A stretch of DNA of 26,360 nt from a virus. Of the stretch, positions 4,239 through 23,865 are shown in pieces. The translations under genes were made by a program, and so were the position numbers. The stretch is taken from the IMG/VR virus record IMGVR_UViG_3300034198_007766, positions 1 through 26,360 of that record. One strand, written 5' to 3'. The notes beneath the pieces were generated by a model. That model was not told the origin of the DNA. It searched no databases and saw nothing but the letters and a program-made list of their open reading frames with translations. Position 1 is the first letter of the stretch. Every line of letters begins with the position of its first letter.

Positions 4239-4309
4239 CTCATTGACATTTTACTCTGTTAGATGGATTTTACAGATATGACACTTTTTGATTGTGGTAT
4301 ATGCAATGC

Positions 4310-4354
4310 TCGGGTTCGAGCCCCGTCAACTCCGGGTTTTCTACAGAGAAAACC
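4310..4354 (+). other. Candidate attP: tRNA 3'-end-like segment and hairpin
   Basis: The sequence TCGGGTTCGAGCCCCGT (4310-4326) has the shape of a tRNA T-arm, with the invariant TTCGA loop and a four-of-five-pair stem. It is followed by a 7-nt acceptor-like strand CAACTCC and a discriminator G. No D-arm or anticodon arm precedes it, so it is only a tRNA 3' end. Such fragments next to an integrase are the usual form of an attP core matching a host tRNA gene. A perfect 7-bp hairpin, GGTTTTC-TACAGA-GAAAACC, follows (4335-4354). The antisense translation ELTGLEP is the familiar artefact of tRNA 3' ends. The exact crossover core cannot be fixed without the host site. Confidence 0.6.
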
Positions 4355-4405
4355 GAGGGAGCCGAGAAAAAGTCGGACGGATCTCGTACAAACTGGAGAA
4401 AAAAG

Positions 4406-7246
4406 ATGAGCTCTCCTGTACGCGGCAAAATTAAAACTCCCGATGGTCGCATCGTGGAAATTACCGACCAAGAGTTCCAGTACGGGCGTTGGTGGAATAA
4501 AAAAATCGATCAATTCAACCGAGAGATTTACTCGTTCCGAAACCCCATGCCGCTGGAGAAAGGCGGAGAGCTTCCCGAGTTCCATTTCAAGCGTATCGTT
4601 TCCGCTCTGTGGCCTGCGGATGGGCCTAAACCCTTCGTCTGGCACCCGTGGGCAGAAAGAATGTTGGAGGCCGCGTGCCAGAACAAGTACCTCGCCGTGG
4701 CTGGCTGCGCGAGTTCGGGGAAGTGTCTTGCTCCGCACGTTCCCGTGTTGATGTTCGACGGGACTATCAAACGAAACGACGAAGTGCGAGTAGGCGATCA
4801 GCTCATGGGGCCGGACTCCAAACCCCGTAATGTTCTCGTTACGAATCCTGGCCGCTCAAACATGGTTCGTATTATTCCCGAGAAAGGAGACTCGTGGGAA
4901 TGTAACGACGATCATATCCTTACGCTCAAACGGGCTTGGTCTGGAGAGAGATGTCGGAAACGTGTCGGGGAGCTTATCGATATTTCCGTCAAAGATTACC
5001 TGGCTTCCAGCGAGTCTTTTAAGAAGCGGTTCAAACTTGTTTGCACGGGGGTAGAGTTCCCCGAGCAGCCCGTCGAGATTGACCCACGCATCTATGGGAT
5101 CTGGCTCGGTGACGGCACCACGGGACGGCCTATAATCACTTGCTCCCCGAAGACTGATCTCGACGTGTCACAGTATCTGAAAACTTATTTTCAGTCTGAA
5201 GGGTATGATCTCAAAGTGACTTCCTACGCTGGGAAGTGCCCCACATACATGGTGTCCCACAAGGGTGCTCGCGGTAACCCATTTTTCGATTTGGTAAAAG
5301 AGTCTTCCGGAAATCCTCCCCTCGCCAGACCGTGGGAGGGAGAAAAGAGGATCGCTCGACGGTACTTGATCAATAGTCATGAAAAACGGATGCGCCTACT
5401 TGCTGGAATCATAGATTCCGATGGATACTCTGCGGGCACCTACTACGAGATTGCTTGCTCCTATCCCGGACTGGCCCAAGACATCGTGTTTCTAGCTAGG
5501 TCGCTGGGGTTCCGAGTAACTGTCAAAGACCGCATCATAAAGCTCAACGGGAAGGAGTATACATCCCAGAGGATCTGCATCTTGGGGAATACGTCTGAGA
5601 TTCCGACCCTCCGTAAGAAGTGTGTTACCAAAAAGCGAAGACAGAATTCCGACTGTACTTCTTTTGAGGTGCAGCAGTTGGGTGAAGGCGATTGGTACGG
5701 GTACACCCTCGATGGAGACGGTAGATTCCTACTGGGGGATTTTACTATAAATCACAACACCGATTTTTACGCTATCTGGGCTATTGTAAACTTCATTGTC
5801 GCACCTTACGACACAATGGTTCTAGTCACCTCGACTACGCTCAAAGACTCCCGCAAGCGTATCTGGGGATCGATCCGAGATTATTGGCAAGCCGCGCCCC
5901 CTTTGCCTGGGAAATTGGTCGATAGCATGGGCCTCATCCGATTTGAGGATGGGACTGGCGGAACCAGCGATAAGTCCGGCATCACGCTTATCGCCGCTGA
6001 GAAAAAGAAAGAGAAAGAGGCGGTCGGCAAGCTGATCGGATTCAAAAACAAACGCGTGATAGTGATCGCCGACGAAATGCCCGAGCTCTCGGAATCAATC
6101 TTGGAGGCATCCGCCAGCAACCTTTCCCTGAACCCCGAGTTCCAGTTCATCGGCATCGGCAACCCTGCATCCCGCTTCGACGCATTCGGAATCCTTGCGA
6201 AGCCGAAAGACGGCTGGCAGTCCATCAGCCCTCTTGAAGACGAGTGGGAGACCGAGCGGGGCTTGTGTATCCGCTTCGACGGAGAGAAGTCCCCGAACGT
6301 CATCGCCAATAAGCTCATCTATCCCTGGATCGTGACTCAGGCCAAGATCGACGAGGCCAAGGCACGCTTCGGCGAGAACTCGCTTGCCTACTACCGAATG
6401 TTCCGTGGCTACTGGGCACCGACCGGAGACGAGGACAATATCTACTCCGAGGCGGAGATCATCGCTACCCAAGCCGACAAGACAGCTATCTGGCTGGAGG
6501 AGCCTACCAAGGTGGCGGCACTTGATCCGGCGTTCACCAATGGTGGCGATCGATCAGTGCTCTACCACGGGCTCTACGGAATCTCCCGCGAGGGAATCCC
6601 AGCTCTTTGCTTCACGCACTACGAGCTACTCCAGGACGACGTGACCAATAAAAAGCAAACTCGCAGCGAGCAGATCGTCCGTCAGTTCCAAGAGAAGTGC
6701 GAGATCGAGGGCATACTACCTGAGCACACGGCATTCGACGCGAGTGGCGCGGGAGGACCCTTCGGCGACATCGTGGACATGATCTGGTCTCGGAACGTGC
6801 TCCGGGTCCAGTTCGGAGGTAAGGCTTCCGAGCTCCCCGTTTCCGCAACTGACAACACCCCTTCGTGCGAAAGGTACGTCAACCGGGTCTCCGAGCTTTG
6901 GTTCTCGGCCAAGGAGTTGATCCGCAACGGGCAGCTCAAAGGAATCGACCGAGAGCTTGCCAAGGAGATGTGCTCTCGCAAATACAGCACCGACAAGGGC
7001 ACAGCTCTCCGGATGCGAGTTGAGAGCAAAGTTGACATGAAGGGTCGAGTGGGAGCTTCCCCAGATATTGCGGACGCCGCAGCCATTTTGATCGAACTCT
7101 GCCGTCAAAGGTTCGGGTTCGGGGGGATGACAGTCAAGGCAAAGAACGAGCAGTCCACTTTTGAGTCCAAAAGAGCCTATAACTTTAGGAAATTGGGATT
7201 AGCTAACCTTGGAAAGTCACTACAACGCGATCAGTTTTCCTCTTGA
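4406..7246 (+). CDS. terL: Terminase large subunit with in-frame intein
   Basis: The DNA-packaging motor ATPase and nuclease. The 946-aa precursor becomes a 601-aa terminase after removal of a 345-aa intein (residues 107-451). The spliced P-loop reads GCASSGKTDF (Walker A). Walker B is VIVIADE (D556/E557 of the precursor). The C-terminal RNase H-fold nuclease shows AALDPAF (D707), the AFDASGAGG segment and ASPDIADA (D887, D890). I start at ATG 4406, which has a good GGAG 7 nt upstream. An in-frame ATG at 4292 would translate the tRNA-like attP region and is unlikely. The last codons and the stop (TCTTGA) lie inside the first 32-bp direct repeat. It is the first gene of the right arm. Confidence 0.95.
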   Translation: MSSPVRGKIKTPDGRIVEITDQEFQYGRWWNKKIDQFNREIYSFRNPMPLEKGGELPEFHFKRIVSALWPADGPKPFVWHPWAERMLEAACQNKYLAVAGCASSGKCLAPHVPVLMFDGTIKRNDEVRVGDQLMGPDSKPRNVLVTNPGRSNMVRIIPEKGDSWECNDDHILTLKRAWSGERCRKRVGELIDISVKDYLASSESFKKRFKLVCTGVEFPEQPVEIDPRIYGIWLGDGTTGRPIITCSPKTDLDVSQYLKTYFQSEGYDLKVTSYAGKCPTYMVSHKGARGNPFFDLVKESSGNPPLARPWEGEKRIARRYLINSHEKRMRLLAGIIDSDGYSAGTYYEIACSYPGLAQDIVFLARSLGFRVTVKDRIIKLNGKEYTSQRICILGNTSEIPTLRKKCVTKKRRQNSDCTSFEVQQLGEGDWYGYTLDGDGRFLLGDFTINHNTDFYAIWAIVNFIVAPYDTMVLVTSTTLKDSRKRIWGSIRDYWQAAPPLPGKLVDSMGLIRFEDGTGGTSDKSGITLIAAEKKKEKEAVGKLIGFKNKRVIVIADEMPELSESILEASASNLSLNPEFQFIGIGNPASRFDAFGILAKPKDGWQSISPLEDEWETERGLCIRFDGEKSPNVIANKLIYPWIVTQAKIDEAKARFGENSLAYYRMFRGYWAPTGDEDNIYSEAEIIATQADKTAIWLEEPTKVAALDPAFTNGGDRSVLYHGLYGISREGIPALCFTHYELLQDDVTNKKQTRSEQIVRQFQEKCEIEGILPEHTAFDASGAGGPFGDIVDMIWSRNVLRVQFGGKASELPVSATDNTPSCERYVNRVSELWFSAKELIRNGQLKGIDRELAKEMCSRKYSTDKGTALRMRVESKVDMKGRVGASPDIADAAAILIELCRQRFGFGGMTVKAKNEQSTFESKRAYNFRKLGLANLGKSLQRDQFSS
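4724..5758 (+). mobile_element. LAGLIDADG intein in terminase Walker A motif
   Basis: A 345-aa protein-splicing element with homing endonuclease. It begins with Cys1 (CLAPHVPVLMFDGTIKRNDE, block A). Block B is around ECNDDHILTL. The two dodecapeptide motifs of a LAGLIDADG endonuclease are IYGIWLGDG and LLAGIIDSDG, both with their acidic residue. It ends in block F/G (WYGYTLDGDGRFLLGDF, then TINHN) with the penultimate His and terminal Asn. The first extein residue is Thr. All splicing and nuclease residues appear intact, so it is probably active. Insertion falls between the Lys and Thr of the P-loop, so the ATPase cannot work unless splicing occurs. Confidence 0.95.
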
Positions 7247-12996: not shown

Positions 12997-14220
12997 ATGG
13001 ACCCAACAGCACCAATCGAAACCGCAGCCTCTACCCCAGAGGTATCTTCAACCACGCAACAATCCTCCAGCTCCTTTGAAAAGGATTCCGGTTTCGATTG
13101 GGGCACTCGCCTCGACTCACTCCTCGACGCAGCCTCGGAAGGGAAGGACCCCTATGCTGAAAAGGAGCCTGAAGTAGAAAAGCCTAAGGCCGAGAAGAAG
13201 GCCAAGGGGGCGAAAGCTAAGGTGAAGGAAGAGCCTACTCCTGAAAAGGAAGAGACTCCTGAAGAACCTGAAAAGGAAGAGGAGAAAGATGAGACTGAGG
13301 AAGAGCCTAAGGCTGAAGAGGCTCCCTCTAACTTGACCGATAAGGCAAAGGTCAAATGGGGTGAGCTCCGCGCCGAGGCTCAAAAGGCCAAGGAGTACGC
13401 CAAGGAGATCGAGACCCTTAAAGCCGATCTGGAGAAGGCCAAGACAGCCGTGGTCGATACCTCTGAGGTCGAACGCCTCAAGCAGATCAACCAGGAGTAC
13501 GAGTCCGAGCTTGCCGTCGCCCGTGTCGAGGCTACCCAAGAGTACAAGGCCAATGTGGTCACTCCAATGGTGAACGTGGTCGGCTACCTCAACCAGTTGG
13601 CGGAGAAATACGAGCTCTCCAGCAAGGAGATGCTAACTGCGATGGCTGAGTCTGACCCAGCCAAGCAGAGTGACTTGATCGCAGACATCGCCGCCTCGAT
13701 GAATGAGCGTGATAGGTTGAAGTTCTACGCTTCCGCAGACGATTACTCCGAGATCATCCGCCGTCGCGATATGTTCCAGAACTCTGCCCGTGAGCGCATG
13801 AGCCAGATCGAGGAGAGCAGGCAGGCCGAGATCGCCAAGCAAACAGCCGAGTCAGAGAAGGCAAGCACCGAGGCCAAAGAGGCTTACGAGAAGGCTACCG
13901 ACAAGGTGTTCGAGGATTTGAAAAAGTCTGTCCCCGTTCTCTCTGACGAGGAGATTGCAGCAGATGTTCAGCGTCTGGCGAAGGGCGACTACAGCAATGC
14001 CAACCCCGAGCTCAAAGCCTATCTAGCTCACTCGGGAGCTCTGCTGCCACACATCCTGAAGGCCCTGAAGGAGGCCAAGTCTGAACTGGACGCCGCCAAC
14101 AAGAAGATTGTCGGCTACCGGAACGGATCTCCTAAAGCCGGATCGGGCAGCGCAGACATGAGCCGCTCGGTCTCCGAGGATGTCGGCTTCTTGGAAGCTC
14201 TGGACGCCCAACTAGGTTAA
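12997..14220 (+). CDS. Scaffold-like protein
   Basis: A 407-aa hydrophilic protein placed directly before the major capsid gene, where scaffolding proteins usually sit. Residues about 45-110 are extremely Glu/Lys/Pro-rich and probably disordered. About 120-185 form coiled coils (AKVKWGELRAEAQKAKEYAK, then ETLKADLEKAKTAV). A helical C-terminal half ends in a serine-rich tail and EDVGFLEALDAQLG. This organisation matches internal scaffolds that guide procapsid assembly and are then released. No protease domain is visible here or next door. The leader is A/C-rich without Shine-Dalgarno. Confidence 0.75.
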   Translation: MDPTAPIETAASTPEVSSTTQQSSSSFEKDSGFDWGTRLDSLLDAASEGKDPYAEKEPEVEKPKAEKKAKGAKAKVKEEPTPEKEETPEEPEKEEEKDETEEEPKAEEAPSNLTDKAKVKWGELRAEAQKAKEYAKEIETLKADLEKAKTAVVDTSEVERLKQINQEYESELAVARVEATQEYKANVVTPMVNVVGYLNQLAEKYELSSKEMLTAMAESDPAKQSDLIADIAASMNERDRLKFYASADDYSEIIRRRDMFQNSARERMSQIEESRQAEIAKQTAESEKASTEAKEAYEKATDKVFEDLKKSVPVLSDEEIAADVQRLAKGDYSNANPELKAYLAHSGALLPHILKALKEAKSELDAANKKIVGYRNGSPKAGSGSADMSRSVSEDVGFLEALDAQLG

Positions 14221-14230
14221 TTCCCCTGTT

Positions 14231-14302
14231 ATTCCCCGGCTCGCTGCAACACTAACCAATCGGTTGTTTGATCTAAACTGCGAGCTGGGGAATATATTTT
14301 GG
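14231..14302 (+). terminator. Long stem-loop with T-rich tail after scaffold gene
   Basis: ATTCCCCgGCTCG (14231-14243) pairs with CGAGCtGGGGAAT (14281-14293), a 13-bp stem with one G-T pair. The enclosed 37 nt holds a smaller AACC-AATC-GGTT hairpin. It is followed by ATATATTTT. It could be a rho-independent terminator or attenuator separating scaffold from capsid transcription. The large loop is unusual for a simple terminator. Confidence 0.5.
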
Positions 14303-14323
14303 AGAAATATAGTTGACAGAATG

Positions 14324-14342
14324 TGCGTTGTATAAGATACCT
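14324..14342 (-). promoter_or_regulatory. Recurrent element, inverted copy before capsid leader
   Basis: Read on the minus strand, AGGTATCTTATACAACGCA differs from the 7249 copy at one base. On the plus strand it lies just after TTGACA (14313-14318). It is the only clear copy pointing away from the gene it precedes. Because the GTAT-N3-ATAC core is palindromic, this favours a protein-binding site over a strictly directional promoter. Confidence 0.45.
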
Positions 14343-14550
14343 CTCTCGTGCCCCAGTCACCTCTACTTGGAACAAGGCGGTCTGAGCCTTAATCAGACTT
14401 CGTTAGTACATATTTTTAAGAGCTTAAAATCCGGAGGTAACTCTGGCTCTCCCCTGGCTCCGGTGAGGGAAAAACCACGATCGGTCTGTTTAAGCACTGG
14501 AAATATCCGGTGGATAGATCGGTTAAACCCCACCCAACCATTTTAATTAT
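14343..14550 (+). ncRNA. Structured leader of the capsid gene (putative cis RNA)
   Basis: About 200 non-coding bases before the capsid ATG with unusual pairing potential. AAGGC (14374-14378) pairs GCCTT (14386-14390), while its loop GTCTGA (14380-14385) pairs TCAGAC (14393-14398), so the two are either an H-type pseudoknot or alternative hairpins. GCTTAAA (14422-14428) pairs TTTAAGC (14489-14495), enclosing CCGGAG/CTCCGG (14431-14436/14458-14463). CACTGG/CCGGTG (14495-14500/14507-14512) lies inside CGATC/GATCG (14478-14482/14517-14521), which crosses the GCTTAAA helix. No known riboswitch or ribozyme signature was recognised. The final 25 nt before the ATG are A/C/T-rich without Shine-Dalgarno. 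Folding is by eye only. Confidence 0.45.
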
Positions 14551-15753
14551 ATGGCTTACGACATCGAACAGGTCCTCATTAACGAGGCCAACCGTATTGG
14601 TCCTGACATCTACCGCAAGACCCTCAACACGAGCCCTTGGCTCAAACTCATCAAGAAGGACACTTGGCCCGACGAAATGGGCGACTCCATCAAGGTCCTC
14701 ACCTACGAGCGTTCTCTTCCCGCCAACAGCCTTTCTTGGAACCAGGTCTCCCTTGACCCCGTTTCCGGTACTGGCCTCGTCGGTGGTGGTAACAACGCCG
14801 TCCCAAGTGCTCAGGTCATCGAGTTCGCGCAGACCCTGCGTAGCTACAACCTGACTCACACCGCTCTTGAGAGCCCTAAGCTCAGCGTCAATGACCTGCG
14901 CTTCTCCCTCAAGCGTAAAGAGCAGCTCTCCAACATCTTCGCCATCCTCCAGGAGAACACCTCCTATGCTTGGCAGGATCGTTTCCGCGATGAGTACGTC
15001 CGCCTCGCCCAGAACAAGATCAACGCAGTTCTCGCTCCAAGCGGACAGCTCGTTGCTACCTCTGGCGATGGATCGGCCTTCTCGACCACCGAGCCTACCA
15101 GCACTCTGACTCAGGGCATCCTGGATCGGGTCTATATGAAGCTCATCCGTGATGGTGCAGGCAACAACCCTCTCGATCGTGAGAACGCTCGCCCCGTCTT
15201 CGGTGCGATCCTCTCCTCGGAGGCTTCCCGCAACCTCATCATGGCTAGTGAGAACATCCGTATGGATTACCGCTACTCCGATTCCAAGAATGAGCTCCTC
15301 GCTCCTCTCGGTATCGAGCGCAGCTACTCCGGATTCTTCCACATGGTCGATGATTGGGGTCCACGTTACGACCTCGTCAATGGTGCATGGGTCCGCGTTC
15401 TGCCCTACAAGGCGGTCGCTACGACTCAGGGACTCAAGCAGGACATCAATCCTGCCTACGAGACCGCTGAGTTCGAGGACACCATCATCTTCCACCAGGA
15501 TGTGTTCTGCAACCTCGTTCCTAAGCCCATCACGGCTGCTGGAAGCAATGTTACCTTCGACGCAGTCTCTTACATGGGCGACTTCAAGTGGAAGAACATC
15601 ATCACCCCAGACACCAACCCAGATGGGACCATCGGATACTTCCGTGCGATCCTCTCCAGCGGTTCCAAGCCGATCCGTCCTGAGTGGGGCTACGTCATCC
15701 GCCACAAGCGGTCCTCGACGCCCCTCGTTCTCGACACGGTCATCAACGCCTAA
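14551..15753 (+). CDS. Major capsid protein
   Basis: A 400-aa protein (MAYDIEQVLINEANRIGPDI at the N-terminus, ending SSTPLVLDTVINA), predicted to be the HK97-fold shell subunit. The evidence is its size, position after the scaffold-like gene, composition typical of capsid subunits, a central FRDEYVRLAQNKINAVL helix and a beta-rich C-terminal half. Codon use is strongly biased to GCC, CTC and AAG, compared with the fibre genes, consistent with high expression. There is no recognisable maturation-protease cleavage site. Structured leader RNA lies upstream and a strong hairpin downstream, together suggesting dedicated regulation. The family name was not recognised. Confidence 0.82.
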   Translation: MAYDIEQVLINEANRIGPDIYRKTLNTSPWLKLIKKDTWPDEMGDSIKVLTYERSLPANSLSWNQVSLDPVSGTGLVGGGNNAVPSAQVIEFAQTLRSYNLTHTALESPKLSVNDLRFSLKRKEQLSNIFAILQENTSYAWQDRFRDEYVRLAQNKINAVLAPSGQLVATSGDGSAFSTTEPTSTLTQGILDRVYMKLIRDGAGNNPLDRENARPVFGAILSSEASRNLIMASENIRMDYRYSDSKNELLAPLGIERSYSGFFHMVDDWGPRYDLVNGAWVRVLPYKAVATTQGLKQDINPAYETAEFEDTIIFHQDVFCNLVPKPITAAGSNVTFDAVSYMGDFKWKNIITPDTNPDGTIGYFRAILSSGSKPIRPEWGYVIRHKRSSTPLVLDTVINA

Positions 15754-15761
15754 TTGAACCT

Positions 15762-15803
15762 CCAGAGCAGGTGCTTCGCCCACAAAGCGGAGCACCTCTC
15801 TGG
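15762..15803 (+). terminator. Strong hairpin after major capsid gene
   Basis: CCAGAG pairs CTCTGG, AGGTGCT pairs AGCACCT and CGC pairs GCG. These stack, with one bulged C and one T-G position, around a CCACAAA loop, giving about 17 bp. There is no T-tract after it, so it is more likely an mRNA-stabilising or processing hairpin, or a partial attenuator, than a full intrinsic terminator. It sits in the 67-bp gap between capsid and the acidic protein gene. Confidence 0.5.
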
Positions 15804-15820
15804 AACTCAATCCCAAGCGC

Positions 15821-16279: not shown

Positions 16280-16285
16280 TTAACC

Positions 16286-16318
16286 GGGAAGCTAGAGGTT
16301 CGATCCCTCTAGTTTTCC
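16286..16318 (+). other. Hairpin resembling a tRNA T-arm/acceptor end
   Basis: CTAGAGG-TTCGATC-CCTCTAG is a perfect 7-bp hairpin whose loop is a canonical T-loop. It extends outward as GGGAAG/TTTTCC with G-T pairs, and AGTTTTCCACC follows like an acceptor 3' strand. I could not find matching D- or anticodon arms upstream, so this is not an intact tRNA gene. It could be a tRNA remnant or a T-arm mimic. Confidence 0.4.
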
Positions 16319-16346
16319 ACCCCTGTCGGAAAACAATTTATTTATT
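16312..16346 (+). terminator. Probable rho-independent terminator
   Basis: GTTTTCC (16312-16318) pairs perfectly with GGAAAAC (16328-16334) across a 9-nt loop and is followed by AATTTATTTATT. The 5' strand overlaps the extended T-arm-like hairpin, so the two structures are mutually exclusive and could form a terminator/antiterminator switch. It separates the head genes from the AT-richer fibre-like genes. Confidence 0.5.
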
Positions 16347-20247: not shown

Positions 20248-23200
20248 ATGGCAAGTTCTCCCAAAAGACCCACTCCTAGGCCGCTGACGCCCGATAATCC
20301 GGTAGTCAGTTACCCGACGCCCAATACCTCCGACCTCTTGGTCGTGCAGGATGTGGACACTCGTTTGCCTGGGTATGTTGCGCTGGAGTATGGCGACCTG
20401 CATCCCGATCAAGTTCTCTACCCAAATCTGAAGTTAGTTTACCAGACTCCCCTTGATCAGGAGCAGAATTTCATGTGGGTTCGTCGGGTCTACGCAGCGG
20501 ACCGCGCCGACCAAGATGACTACAACTACGCAGTTAAGTACGGAAGCGGTCACACGGCACACCCGATCTATATCCGCACCTACATTCTTCCTCGTGAAGG
20601 GTACGAGCCGCCAGCGGTAGGCTCCACTGATCCCGTTTATTCAGACGCTACTTTCGTCGATGAAGAGATCGTCCGGTTGAAAGATGACCAGTCCGACGGG
20701 CAGCTCGATTCTCTTTTCATCAAGGTCATGCGGTCATATCAGACACTGCCTGGACCAGATCTCGTAACGCGCCAGAAAGGTTCTGCCGACGTAGTGCCAG
20801 CTAAGTTCAAGGCTCAGCGACAGTTCACCATCACCCGGACCGAGGTTCTCCCGTCGGAGTTACCGGACGACACAAGCTCTACGATCGTGGAGAGTACGGT
20901 CGCCCAGAAGGATAACGCCAACAAGGCTGAGAAGACCACGGTTGCCATCGATGCCGCCACCGAAGAACTCCTAAGTAAGAAGATCACTCCGCAAGGACAA
21001 GTCGCCACCGTACATGAGAGACTTGTGGCAACTGGCTCCGCAGACGATGCCATTACCCCAAGTGCGCTCGTGGTGGAGGGAAGTTCCGATGCTTTGGGCA
21101 ATGGTCAGAGCGTCAGATCTATTGCGACAGTTGAAACAGTGTTCTCCGAGCAATCTTTCTCGAAGGAACGGCCTGACGTAGTACCTCAGAAATTCCGTGC
21201 TCTTGTCCCCGCCGTTACCTCTTCGGAGGTAGTCAGTACTGATGAAGAGGGAGACGCCGCTACTCCTTCACTCGATACCGGAGACCTCTCCGCTACCGAA
21301 GAACAAGTAACCGTTTTCAAGAAGAGGAAGCGTAAGACTAGTCGGCCCATTACTTCTACTGCTTCCCTAACTAGTGGGAAGTGGGTAAAGGAGTTTGGCG
21401 GCGGTCTCACTAGAGTTACTGAAAAGCTCTCTTCTGCCGATACTTCTGTTGCCGAGGAGGGCTTCAATATCCTTGATTCCTCAGTCGAGAATCTAGGTAA
21501 TGGTCAGGCCGTTACTCAAACAACGGAGATGGTTGACGACTTCCCCGTACTAAAGGGCACTCAAGTTGACCCACGCTTCGGCGTGGTTATCGAAATTGAG
21601 AAGTCTGTAGTTGAATCGGGTACTCTTGGCGGCATCGAGCAGTTCGGATCTGGAGCCGGGGCAACGGAAATCGAGCCTTCTGATAAGCACCGCTCCATTC
21701 AGATCATAAGCAAGATCCCTTCTCTCCCCCCCGATCAAGTTTGGTATGGGAGGCGGCGTGAGTCTTTTCCCGATGTTGTTACTAGCGTAGTTATTAAAGG
21801 CACGGAATCACTTTCTACTGAGGTGAACGTGCAATCCTCTTCGGATAGCCCTCTCAAGTCTCGCATAACCCGTAAGTTCAGTTTCGGTCCTCCCGCTGAA
21901 CCTGCCGACCCAATTCTTTTTAAGCCTCAGGCTTTTAATAAGGTTATTGAGTATTCCTTGCCAAGGGTTTCAAAGACTGCCTCTACAGGCACTAGTAACT
22001 CTAGCACGTCTGGAACTTCTACCGGATCTTCCACCTCAAATTCTACTGGCACGTCTGCTTCCGTAAATACGTCGGAGACTTCCTCAACTAGTAGCTCTAC
22101 CTCTACAGGGACATCTTCTTCTAACTCTTCCGGTACCTCTCAAAGCACCTCGAATACTTCTGGGACTTCCACCTCGACAGGCACGAGCTCTGGCACTTCG
22201 ACTTCAACGTCATCCGGTACTAATACTGGAACTTCGACGAGTTCCGGCACCAATACGACTACTTCAACGAGTTCCAGCACAAACTCTGGGACCTCCACTT
22301 CAACAGGTACGAGCTCAGGGACTTCAACATCATCTGGTACCAACTCAGGCACTTCCACCTCGTCTGGTACAAGCTCGGGTACTTCGACATCTACCTCAAC
22401 AGGTACGAATACTGGAACTTCGACTTCAACTGGTACAAGCTCGGGTACTTCGACTTCAACAGGCACTAGTTCAGGTACTTCCACCTCGTCTGGTACAAGC
22501 TCGGGTACTTCGACATCTACCTCAACAGGTACGACTACTGGAACTTCGACTTCAACAGGTACGAATACTGGGACTTCGACTTCAACAGGTACGAATACTG
22601 GAACTTCGACTTCAACAGGTACAAGCTCTGGGACTTCGACTTCAACAGGTACAAGCTCTGGGACTTCGACTTCAGAAGGTATAAGCTCTGGAACTTCGAC
22701 TTCTACCCAAACTGCAACATCTACTTCCTACAGTTCGGGATCTACAGGTAACTCAAGTTCTACTTCGGAAACCGTATATCCAGATGACTATAGTACTGGA
22801 AGCTCTACCGGGCCGACCACTAGAACTTCACTCTCGAACGGGGGTGCCTCTCATAGCCAGTCTTCCTCTGGGATCAATTCGTCTAACGGAAGCGGTTCCC
22901 ATAGTGGAACGTCATCTTCAACAGGTACAAACTCTAGCACTTCAAATAGTTCGGGAACTCATAGTGGAACGTCAACTTCAACGAGTACGAACTCTGGTTC
23001 TTCTACAAGTACAAGTACTCACTCAGGCACTTCTACATCAACAGGAACTAGCTCAGGCACTTCCACTAGTACTGGAGCTGGAACCCACTCCGGAACTTCG
23101 ACTAGCTCCGGTACGAACTCCGGAACTTCGACTAGCTCCGGTACGAACTCCGGAACTTCGACTACCTCTGGCTCTCATACTGGAACCTCTTCTTCCTCTA

Positions 23201-23865
23201 CCACTGGCACGAGCTCGGGTACTTCTACCTCTACTAGTACCAGCTCGGGCACTTCTACCTCTACTAGTACCAGCTCGGGAACCTCGTCCTCTACTGGCAC
23301 AAGCTCAGGCACTAGCAATGGAACTTCGACATCGAATTCTTCTTCGGCGGGTACTTCTGATAACTCCTCTACGTCATCTGGGACCAGTACTAGTTCCTTT
23401 GACTCCACCTCTAGCTCGTCAGGAACTTCTAGCTCCACCTCTAGCTCGTCAGGAACCTCCTCCTCCACGGCGTCGGGAACCAGCTCATCTACTTCAGATG
23501 TCGAGTCTACGGGGAGCTCCAACTCCACGGGGAATTCTACCTCTACGCAGTCCACTACTTCGACGTCTCAAGGTACGCAGCAAGGGACGAATCAATCTGC
23601 TTTCGACAATAACAATAACTCTACCAGCACGGGTAAGCAGTTGCTCTCGATCCAGCTACCGAGAGCCTTACGAGGAGCCTATACCCTTGAGGTACCCACA
23701 ATGATCGGGGAAGCAATGGGCAACATTACAGTTTCTATTCCCGCCACATCTCCCTCAACCCTGCCCTTCGGAAACTGGTACGAAGTAACCCGAAATAGCG
23801 AGCACTGGCGTATGGGCATCTGGGTTACTGAGATCGTCGAAGTCAAGATTCCTGATGCCACATAA
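20248..23865 (+). CDS. Giant Ser/Thr/Gly-repeat virion protein
   Basis: A 1205-aa protein. The N-terminal ~575 residues have protein-like composition (QDVDTRLPGYVALEYGDLHP; VMRSYQTLPGPDLVTRQKG) and internal repeats, such as ADVVPAKFKAQ versus PDVVPQKFRAL and NLGNGQAVTQT versus ALGNGQSVRSI. Residues about 578-1129 are almost pure Ser, Thr, Gly and Asn in GTSTSTGTSSGTSTS-like repeats. The last ~75 residues return to a normal fold (QLLSIQLPRALRGAYTLEVP, ending TEIVEVKIPDAT). The stalk is probably extended and trimeric, and could carry O-linked glycans. It is likely a tail fibre or head filament. No Shine-Dalgarno. It ends 12 nt before the next large gene. Confidence 0.75.
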   Translation: MASSPKRPTPRPLTPDNPVVSYPTPNTSDLLVVQDVDTRLPGYVALEYGDLHPDQVLYPNLKLVYQTPLDQEQNFMWVRRVYAADRADQDDYNYAVKYGSGHTAHPIYIRTYILPREGYEPPAVGSTDPVYSDATFVDEEIVRLKDDQSDGQLDSLFIKVMRSYQTLPGPDLVTRQKGSADVVPAKFKAQRQFTITRTEVLPSELPDDTSSTIVESTVAQKDNANKAEKTTVAIDAATEELLSKKITPQGQVATVHERLVATGSADDAITPSALVVEGSSDALGNGQSVRSIATVETVFSEQSFSKERPDVVPQKFRALVPAVTSSEVVSTDEEGDAATPSLDTGDLSATEEQVTVFKKRKRKTSRPITSTASLTSGKWVKEFGGGLTRVTEKLSSADTSVAEEGFNILDSSVENLGNGQAVTQTTEMVDDFPVLKGTQVDPRFGVVIEIEKSVVESGTLGGIEQFGSGAGATEIEPSDKHRSIQIISKIPSLPPDQVWYGRRRESFPDVVTSVVIKGTESLSTEVNVQSSSDSPLKSRITRKFSFGPPAEPADPILFKPQAFNKVIEYSLPRVSKTASTGTSNSSTSGTSTGSSTSNSTGTSASVNTSETSSTSSSTSTGTSSSNSSGTSQSTSNTSGTSTSTGTSSGTSTSTSSGTNTGTSTSSGTNTTTSTSSSTNSGTSTSTGTSSGTSTSSGTNSGTSTSSGTSSGTSTSTSTGTNTGTSTSTGTSSGTSTSTGTSSGTSTSSGTSSGTSTSTSTGTTTGTSTSTGTNTGTSTSTGTNTGTSTSTGTSSGTSTSTGTSSGTSTSEGISSGTSTSTQTATSTSYSSGSTGNSSSTSETVYPDDYSTGSSTGPTTRTSLSNGGASHSQSSSGINSSNGSGSHSGTSSSTGTNSSTSNSSGTHSGTSTSTSTNSGSSTSTSTHSGTSTSTGTSSGTSTSTGAGTHSGTSTSSGTNSGTSTSSGTNSGTSTTSGSHTGTSSSSTTGTSSGTSTSTSTSSGTSTSTSTSSGTSSSTGTSSGTSNGTSTSNSSSAGTSDNSSTSSGTSTSSFDSTSSSSGTSSSTSSSSGTSSSTASGTSSSTSDVESTGSSNSTGNSTSTQSTTSTSQGTQQGTNQSAFDNNNNSTSTGKQLLSIQLPRALRGAYTLEVPTMIGEAMGNITVSIPATSPSTLPFGNWYEVTRNSEHWRMGIWVTEIVEVKIPDAT
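21981..23636 (+). repeat. Ser/Thr/Gly-coding tandem repeat tract
   Basis: About 1.65 kb of short in-frame repeats, with a local period of 30 bp encoding GTSTSTGTNT-like decamers. It is nearly perfect around 22531-22690 (GGGACTTCGACTTCAACAGG plus a ten-base variable part) and again around 23091-23160. Elsewhere synonymous variation is heavy. The tract is likely to expand and contract by slippage or recombination. Confidence 0.85.

Follow-up and report, generated by a model that had tools for sequence, protein, structure and literature searches.

Comparison of capsid leaders across a large group of uncultured phages indicates that the stretch upstream of the capsid gene is a real, conserved RNA structure, folded differently in part from what a preliminary description had drawn, and apparently a phage RNA family that was previously undescribed. 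The kind of element, a structured 5' leader, is already known; the fold and the target gene are new. The window analysed here is a virus record of 26,360 bases (IMG/VR IMGVR_UViG_3300034198_007766, positions 1-26,360), in which the leader runs from a TTGACA promoter-like box through a hairpin P0, two pseudoknots PK1 and PK2, a long hairpin P3 and an AC-rich run-in to the ATG. The preliminary description had proposed an unrecognised, pseudoknotted cis-acting RNA before the capsid gene; Rfam, homologues and covariation uphold that proposal, whereas one of its two long-range arrangements proved wrong.

The leader occupies much of a 330-base gap, placed correctly at 14221-14550 between the stop of a scaffold-like ORF (12997-14220) and the capsid ATG at 14551. 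We call the following plus-strand ORF of 400 amino acids (14551-15753) the capsid gene, with the caveat that this identity is suggested by the order of the genes and by a weak structural resemblance to HK97-fold phage capsids. The ORF has no Pfam or PHROGs match, and its AlphaFold2 model is of low confidence (pLDDT 54.6). The best Foldseek matches of that model in the PDB are nearly all HK97-fold phage capsids (Pan3, Pam1, N4, B2), the best of them at E 1.5e-3 and probability 0.97, with low TM-scores; the order terminase, portal-like, scaffold-like and then this ORF agrees with the capsid identity. The gap had also been said to lack a convincing ORF, and a coding origin of the leader is rejected, since the longest stop-free run and its frame vary across 13 relatives and no frame is conserved among them. 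Capsid genes of several relatives (L004, L005, L012, L014) carry an insertion of ~60 residues at one place, after window residue ~272, which looks as if a surface domain had been added. Elsewhere in the window, the large terminase ORF (4292-7246) contains an intein with Hint and homing-endonuclease domains, the tail region (20248-23865) encodes a very long Ser/Thr/Gly repeat protein, and TTAACCGGGAAGCTAGAGGTTCGATCCCTCTAGTTTTCCACCCC at 16285-16330 looks like the T-arm plus the acceptor half of a tRNA (GGTTCGATCC), where ARAGORN calls no tRNA.

Two sets of leaders support selection on the fold. First, 49 proposed pairs were tested in a MAFFT alignment of 13 leaders that was not fitted to the structure: 87.1% of cells were paired vs 78.6% in shuffles, both bases had changed in 24 pairs, and none of 500 shuffles, which were not corrected for the relatedness of the leaders, matched the observed value on any of five measures. 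With registers slid by 1-3 columns 28-52% of cells were paired, a control that somewhat favours the structure because this was partly derived from the same 13 sequences. Secondly, 33 leaders were segmented by hand, 16 of them mutually below 80% identity, and showed up to 22 different arm pairs per helix; arms from the same leader paired better than swapped arms in 84-100% of comparisons, scores that are inflated because the segmentation sought complementarity. G-U exceeded A-C by 85 to 21 in the alignment and by 58 to 5 in the 33 leaders, and the plus strand is thus the RNA. The check for covariation in homologous capsid leaders, as suggested in the preliminary description, accordingly came out in favor of a conserved structure in which both pseudoknots covary. 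A second suggested measure, folding score against shuffled sequence, was unremarkable for the single-sequence fold of 14343-14550 (z -1.95), partly because single-sequence folding programs ignore pseudoknots; it is covariation that lends the structure its significance. Pseudoknot scans run blind on single sequences likewise scored only modestly (mean z about 1.1) and say little alone. Chance structure, or common ancestry alone without selection on the fold, would fit these single-sequence values and could exploit both the search for complementarity in the hand segmentation and shuffles that ignore relatedness, but it is extremely improbable in view of covariation above all 500 shuffles and all slid registers in an alignment not fitted to the structure, of compensatory rebuilding in distant lineages, and of the G-U/A-C asymmetry.

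At its upstream end the leader would begin only a few bases from a predicted sigma-70-type start, at ~14347-14350. The promoter-like boxes (14313-14341, plus strand) consist of TTGACA at 14313-14318, a 17-base spacer and GATACC at 14336-14341, the last being TAACCC or TAnnnT in relatives, and upstream of the first helix the TTGAC box keeps nearly the same distance from it in almost every leader. A promoter consensus scan did not report the boxes at 14313-14341, because the -10 box is poor. Hairpin P0 (14353-14370, plus strand) is present in the window's subgroup only, where its 7-nt loop, CACCTCT or CACATCT, is conserved, three pairs are changed on both sides and 76% of cells are paired in the subgroup alignment. 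An anti-Shine-Dalgarno pairing of the P0 loop (CACCTC) with GGAGGT at 14433-14438 is possible in the window and was rejected, being absent in relatives with CACATCT loops and without GGAGG.

PK1 (14374-14398, plus strand) is an H-type pseudoknot, in which AAGGC/GCCTT (14374-14378 with 14386-14390) forms the stem and GTCTGA/TCAGAC (14380-14385 with 14393-14398) the loop helix. It is the loop-to-downstream pairing already proposed from the window, and it covaries in relatives, both in the subgroup and across 31-32 leaders, with 12 different arm pairs for the stem and 19 for the loop helix; own arms did better than swapped ones in 94.5% and 89% of comparisons, respectively. PK1 could not be placed in L072 and its loop helix could not be placed in L056, and in several of the most distant leaders (L095, L108, L119, L125) the structure was not made out.

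PK2 (14420-14469, plus strand), missed in the preliminary description, is the most conserved part of the leader. Its stem, CUCUCCC/GGUGAGGG (14447-14453 with 14462-14469), encloses a loop that pairs upstream as the helix GAGCU/GGCUC (14420-14424 with 14456-14460), and a further hairpin, CCGGAG/CUCUGG (14431-14436 with 14441-14446), is inserted between. Both stems flanking the loop helix covary strongly. The loop helix itself is GAGCU/GGCUC in most leaders and constant in the 13 closest, so its support comes from the distant ones, in which it is rebuilt with other pairs: GAGCC/GGCUC (L072), GCGCU/GGCGC (L043) and GGCA/UGCC (L056, L059 and, by inspection, L092, L113, L116, L120 and others). Own arms were better than swapped ones in 100% of comparisons for the loop helix, 94% for the inserted hairpin and 84% for the stem. 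One blind scan found a possible equivalent, GGGGC with GCCC, in L133, L149 and L152, whose homology is uncertain. PK2 ends 81 nt upstream of the capsid start in the window, and the corresponding distance is ~73-120 nt in nearly all leaders. The same bases had earlier been assigned to a helix of GCTTAAA (14422-14428) with TTTAAGC (14489-14495), which we reject: its first arm belongs to PK2, and its second is not kept in close relatives, reading TTTAATC in L015, TTTAATT in L003, TTTACAC in L005 and TTTATTC in L007. With GAGCU paired to GGCUC instead, the claimed crossing of this helix with CGATC/GATCG falls.

The CGATC/GATCG helix (14478-14482 with 14517-14521) is itself supported, as the base of P3 and without any crossing, its supposed partner helix not being conserved. 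P3 (14479-14524, plus strand) is a long hairpin, bulged in its 5' strand; nine of its pairs, in helices 8-10, have changed on both sides, and it is predicted in most relatives. From its end an AC-rich run-in (14525-14550, plus strand) leads to the capsid ATG, with a conserved AACCACAACCCAA-like tract that is unpaired when the 3' part is folded. The run-in of the window has no Shine-Dalgarno sequence, the plus strand has no U-tailed hairpin or intrinsic terminator between PK2 and the ATG, and no conserved pairing that hides the start codon was found. In six other leaders (L048, L049, L061, L063, L065, L071) a small hairpin just before the ATG carries the Shine-Dalgarno sequence in its loop or in one arm, with varying stems (AUCC/GGAU, ACCC/GGGU, GCCC/GGGC), possibly a second regulatory element.

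Successive capsid searches of IMG/VR returned 17, 43 and 120 relatives, and 80 of the last set were retained. In nearly all relatives non-coding DNA, mostly of 150-380 nt, stands before the capsid gene, and in nearly all a similar leader precedes the gene; it is kept across phages with capsid identity down to ~45%. A DNA pattern drawn from leader motifs alone recovers the same loci as the capsid search, and a second pattern adds one more (L027), again before a capsid gene. The covariance model R1, which was built on PK2 and scores the window at 48.2 bits, gives one confident match per phage record in 13 of 16 records, always at the capsid leader, and misses the other three because their PK2 letters have diverged. 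No convincing further copies were seen elsewhere in the same phage records, and the element was never found away from a capsid gene. Two queries of 50,697 annotated phage records gave no capsid relative, so that no cultured representative is known here. One capsid relative lies in a Chthoniobacterales (Verrucomicrobiota) MAG contig; 388 Verrucomicrobiota genomes held one capsid relative and no convincing copy of the leader element, with three marginal matches (E 0.004-0.008 per genome) that are about chance expectation. Verrucomicrobiota are a putative host, the link being one small MAG contig.

The statement that the RNA falls in no known class also holds. At the gathering cut-off Rfam 15 matches no family in the window or in six relatives; positions 14300-14560 have no match even at E 10, and L048 and L040 yield sub-threshold, unrelated matches only. 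ARAGORN predicts 0 tRNA or tmRNA genes, and a tRNA, tmRNA, known ribozyme or riboswitch was rejected as lacking ARAGORN or Rfam support. A literature search, with subscription-only papers and preprints outside its reach, found no published description of such an RNA.

Structure seems to flank the capsid message at either end, since among 19 gene ends in the window folding z falls below -6 only after the scaffold and capsid genes. The stem that had been noted just upstream of the leader is real (about 14230-14294, plus strand), but it is terminator-like and appears to belong to the preceding transcript: a strong hairpin with a 15-bp MFE stem is followed by the T-rich tail TATATTTT, the 80 nt after the scaffold stop fold with z -7.1, and by inspection U-tailed hairpins stand at the equivalent place in L002, L003, L005, L011 and L013. 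It is probably a terminator that separates the upstream transcript. Past the capsid stop codon lies a very stable hairpin without a U-run (15761-15804, plus strand; window z about -7), and a hairpin directly after the stop was present in all relatives examined (mean z -5.0 in 17 phages). The post-capsid hairpins are unrelated in sequence between relatives and mostly lack a U-run; such hairpins of changing sequence occur in L003, L004, L008, L009, L012, L048 and others. A 3' stabiliser or attenuator is possible.

We hypothesize, with somewhat less than even confidence, that the capsid gene has a transcript of its own and that the leader, at the 5' end of this transcript, promotes its stability and expression. 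Transcription would start a few bases from the first helix, locking the 5' end in structure. Enzymes that begin decay at an unpaired, free 5' end (RppH with RNase E, or RNase J) would be hindered by this, 3' exonucleases would be hindered by the hairpin that follows the capsid stop, and the largely unpaired AC-rich run-in would keep the start codon open. Such a capsid message would be long-lived, well translated and insulated from its neighbours, and the leader would thereby control what is presumably the most expressed gene. In E. coli, 5' structure stabilises mRNA because both RppH and RNase E depend on an unpaired 5' end (PMC3997798). The covariation, the strand assignment, the near-constant spacing between promoter box and first helix, the single confident copy per record at the capsid gene, the lack of a U-tailed plus-strand hairpin from PK2 to the ATG, and the stable hairpin after the capsid stop all fit a stability element. 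However, one plain hairpin would give the same protection as two pseudoknots, and the post-stop hairpin could equally be a terminator or attenuator. The ompA and papA stabilising stem-loops likewise place structure at the very 5' mRNA end, but they are simple stem-loops of cellular genes without a conserved double pseudoknot (PMC3997798). Plain protection also needs no near-invariant GAGCU..AAA and GGCUC; these PK2 letters suggest a partner or tertiary contacts beyond protection alone.

Such a partner could be a capsid, scaffold or other phage or host protein that, bound to the pseudoknots, acts as a repressor or activator of capsid translation, making the leader an operator that we regard as possible at perhaps one chance in a few. 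The near-invariant letters would suit it, as would the order of elements, in which a pseudoknot gives way to a less structured stretch before the start codon, which is the layout of the gene 32 operator; the absence of a conserved start-hiding pairing and the long P3 between PK2 and the run-in speak against it. HK97-fold capsids are not known to bind RNA, which also counts against an operator. The gene 32 pseudoknot of T4, T2 and RB69, through which T4 gp32 autoregulation acts, is likewise H-type and belongs to the leader of one phage mRNA, where it precedes the start codon by 67 nt (PMC3014915), compared with 81 nt for the end of PK2. It is one small pseudoknot, whereas two covarying ones, PK1 and PK2, and a long hairpin are found here. 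Its target is the gene of a DNA-binding protein, that of our leader a capsid gene, and any binder of our leader is putative.

Rather unlikely is an RNA acting at the level of transcription, in which the nascent leader would modify RNA polymerase in a put-like manner and allow read-through of hairpins, such as the one after the capsid gene, into the tail genes. The element would sit right at the transcript start, with strong hairpins and a long co-directional gene set downstream, and HK022 put RNA is a precedent for a promoter-proximal phage leader that acts alone and is thought to act in cis (PMC9378689). But put is a different, simpler RNA, with stem-loops in early operons instead of the PK1/PK2 layout, and acts on E. 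coli RNA polymerase (PMC9378689). Moreover, the post-capsid hairpins mostly lack U-runs, and the leader is present once per genome, not once per long operon.

The T7 gene 10 leader favours high phage capsid expression, from a unit bounded by a promoter of its own and by a terminator downstream; it differs in being short and free of pseudoknots, and shares neither sequence nor fold with the present leader. Phage phi29 packaging RNA shows the principle of a free structured phage RNA. Our leader, with its own putative promoter, compact multi-domain fold and single copy, could similarly be cut or terminated before the ATG and have a role in trans, perhaps as a decoy or during head assembly; this is improbable, as no terminator lies between PK2 or P3 and the ATG, and the element keeps its distance from the start in nearly all leaders and never leaves the capsid gene. 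A riboswitch or self-cleaving ribozyme is more doubtful still, for although pseudoknots with A-rich linkers are common in both and letters near PK2 are conserved, Rfam gives no match, no expression platform such as an alternative terminator between leader structure and coding sequence is seen, a metabolite sensor would be odd before a capsid gene, and the 388 Verrucomicrobiota genomes gave no convincing copy of the element.

According to a 2010 review, translational autoregulation by a viral pseudoknot may be known from the T4-type gene 32 alone (PMC3014915), and structured RNA has rarely been described in leaders of phage structural genes. A bolder possibility, to which we give about one chance in three, is that the leader defines a new class of phage regulatory RNA: a double pseudoknot that serves the major capsid gene alone across a widespread group of uncultured phages. 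A specific partner of phage or host origin (capsid or scaffold protein, ribosome or RNA polymerase) would recognise it, and capsid synthesis would so be coupled to assembly by a mechanism not known from any tailed phage. Each head of a tailed phage needs hundreds of capsid subunits, produced in balance with scaffold and portal, and the leader offers a testable system in which to study this, with natural covariation as a ready supply of compensatory mutants. It also provides a DNA-level marker for this uncultured phage group.
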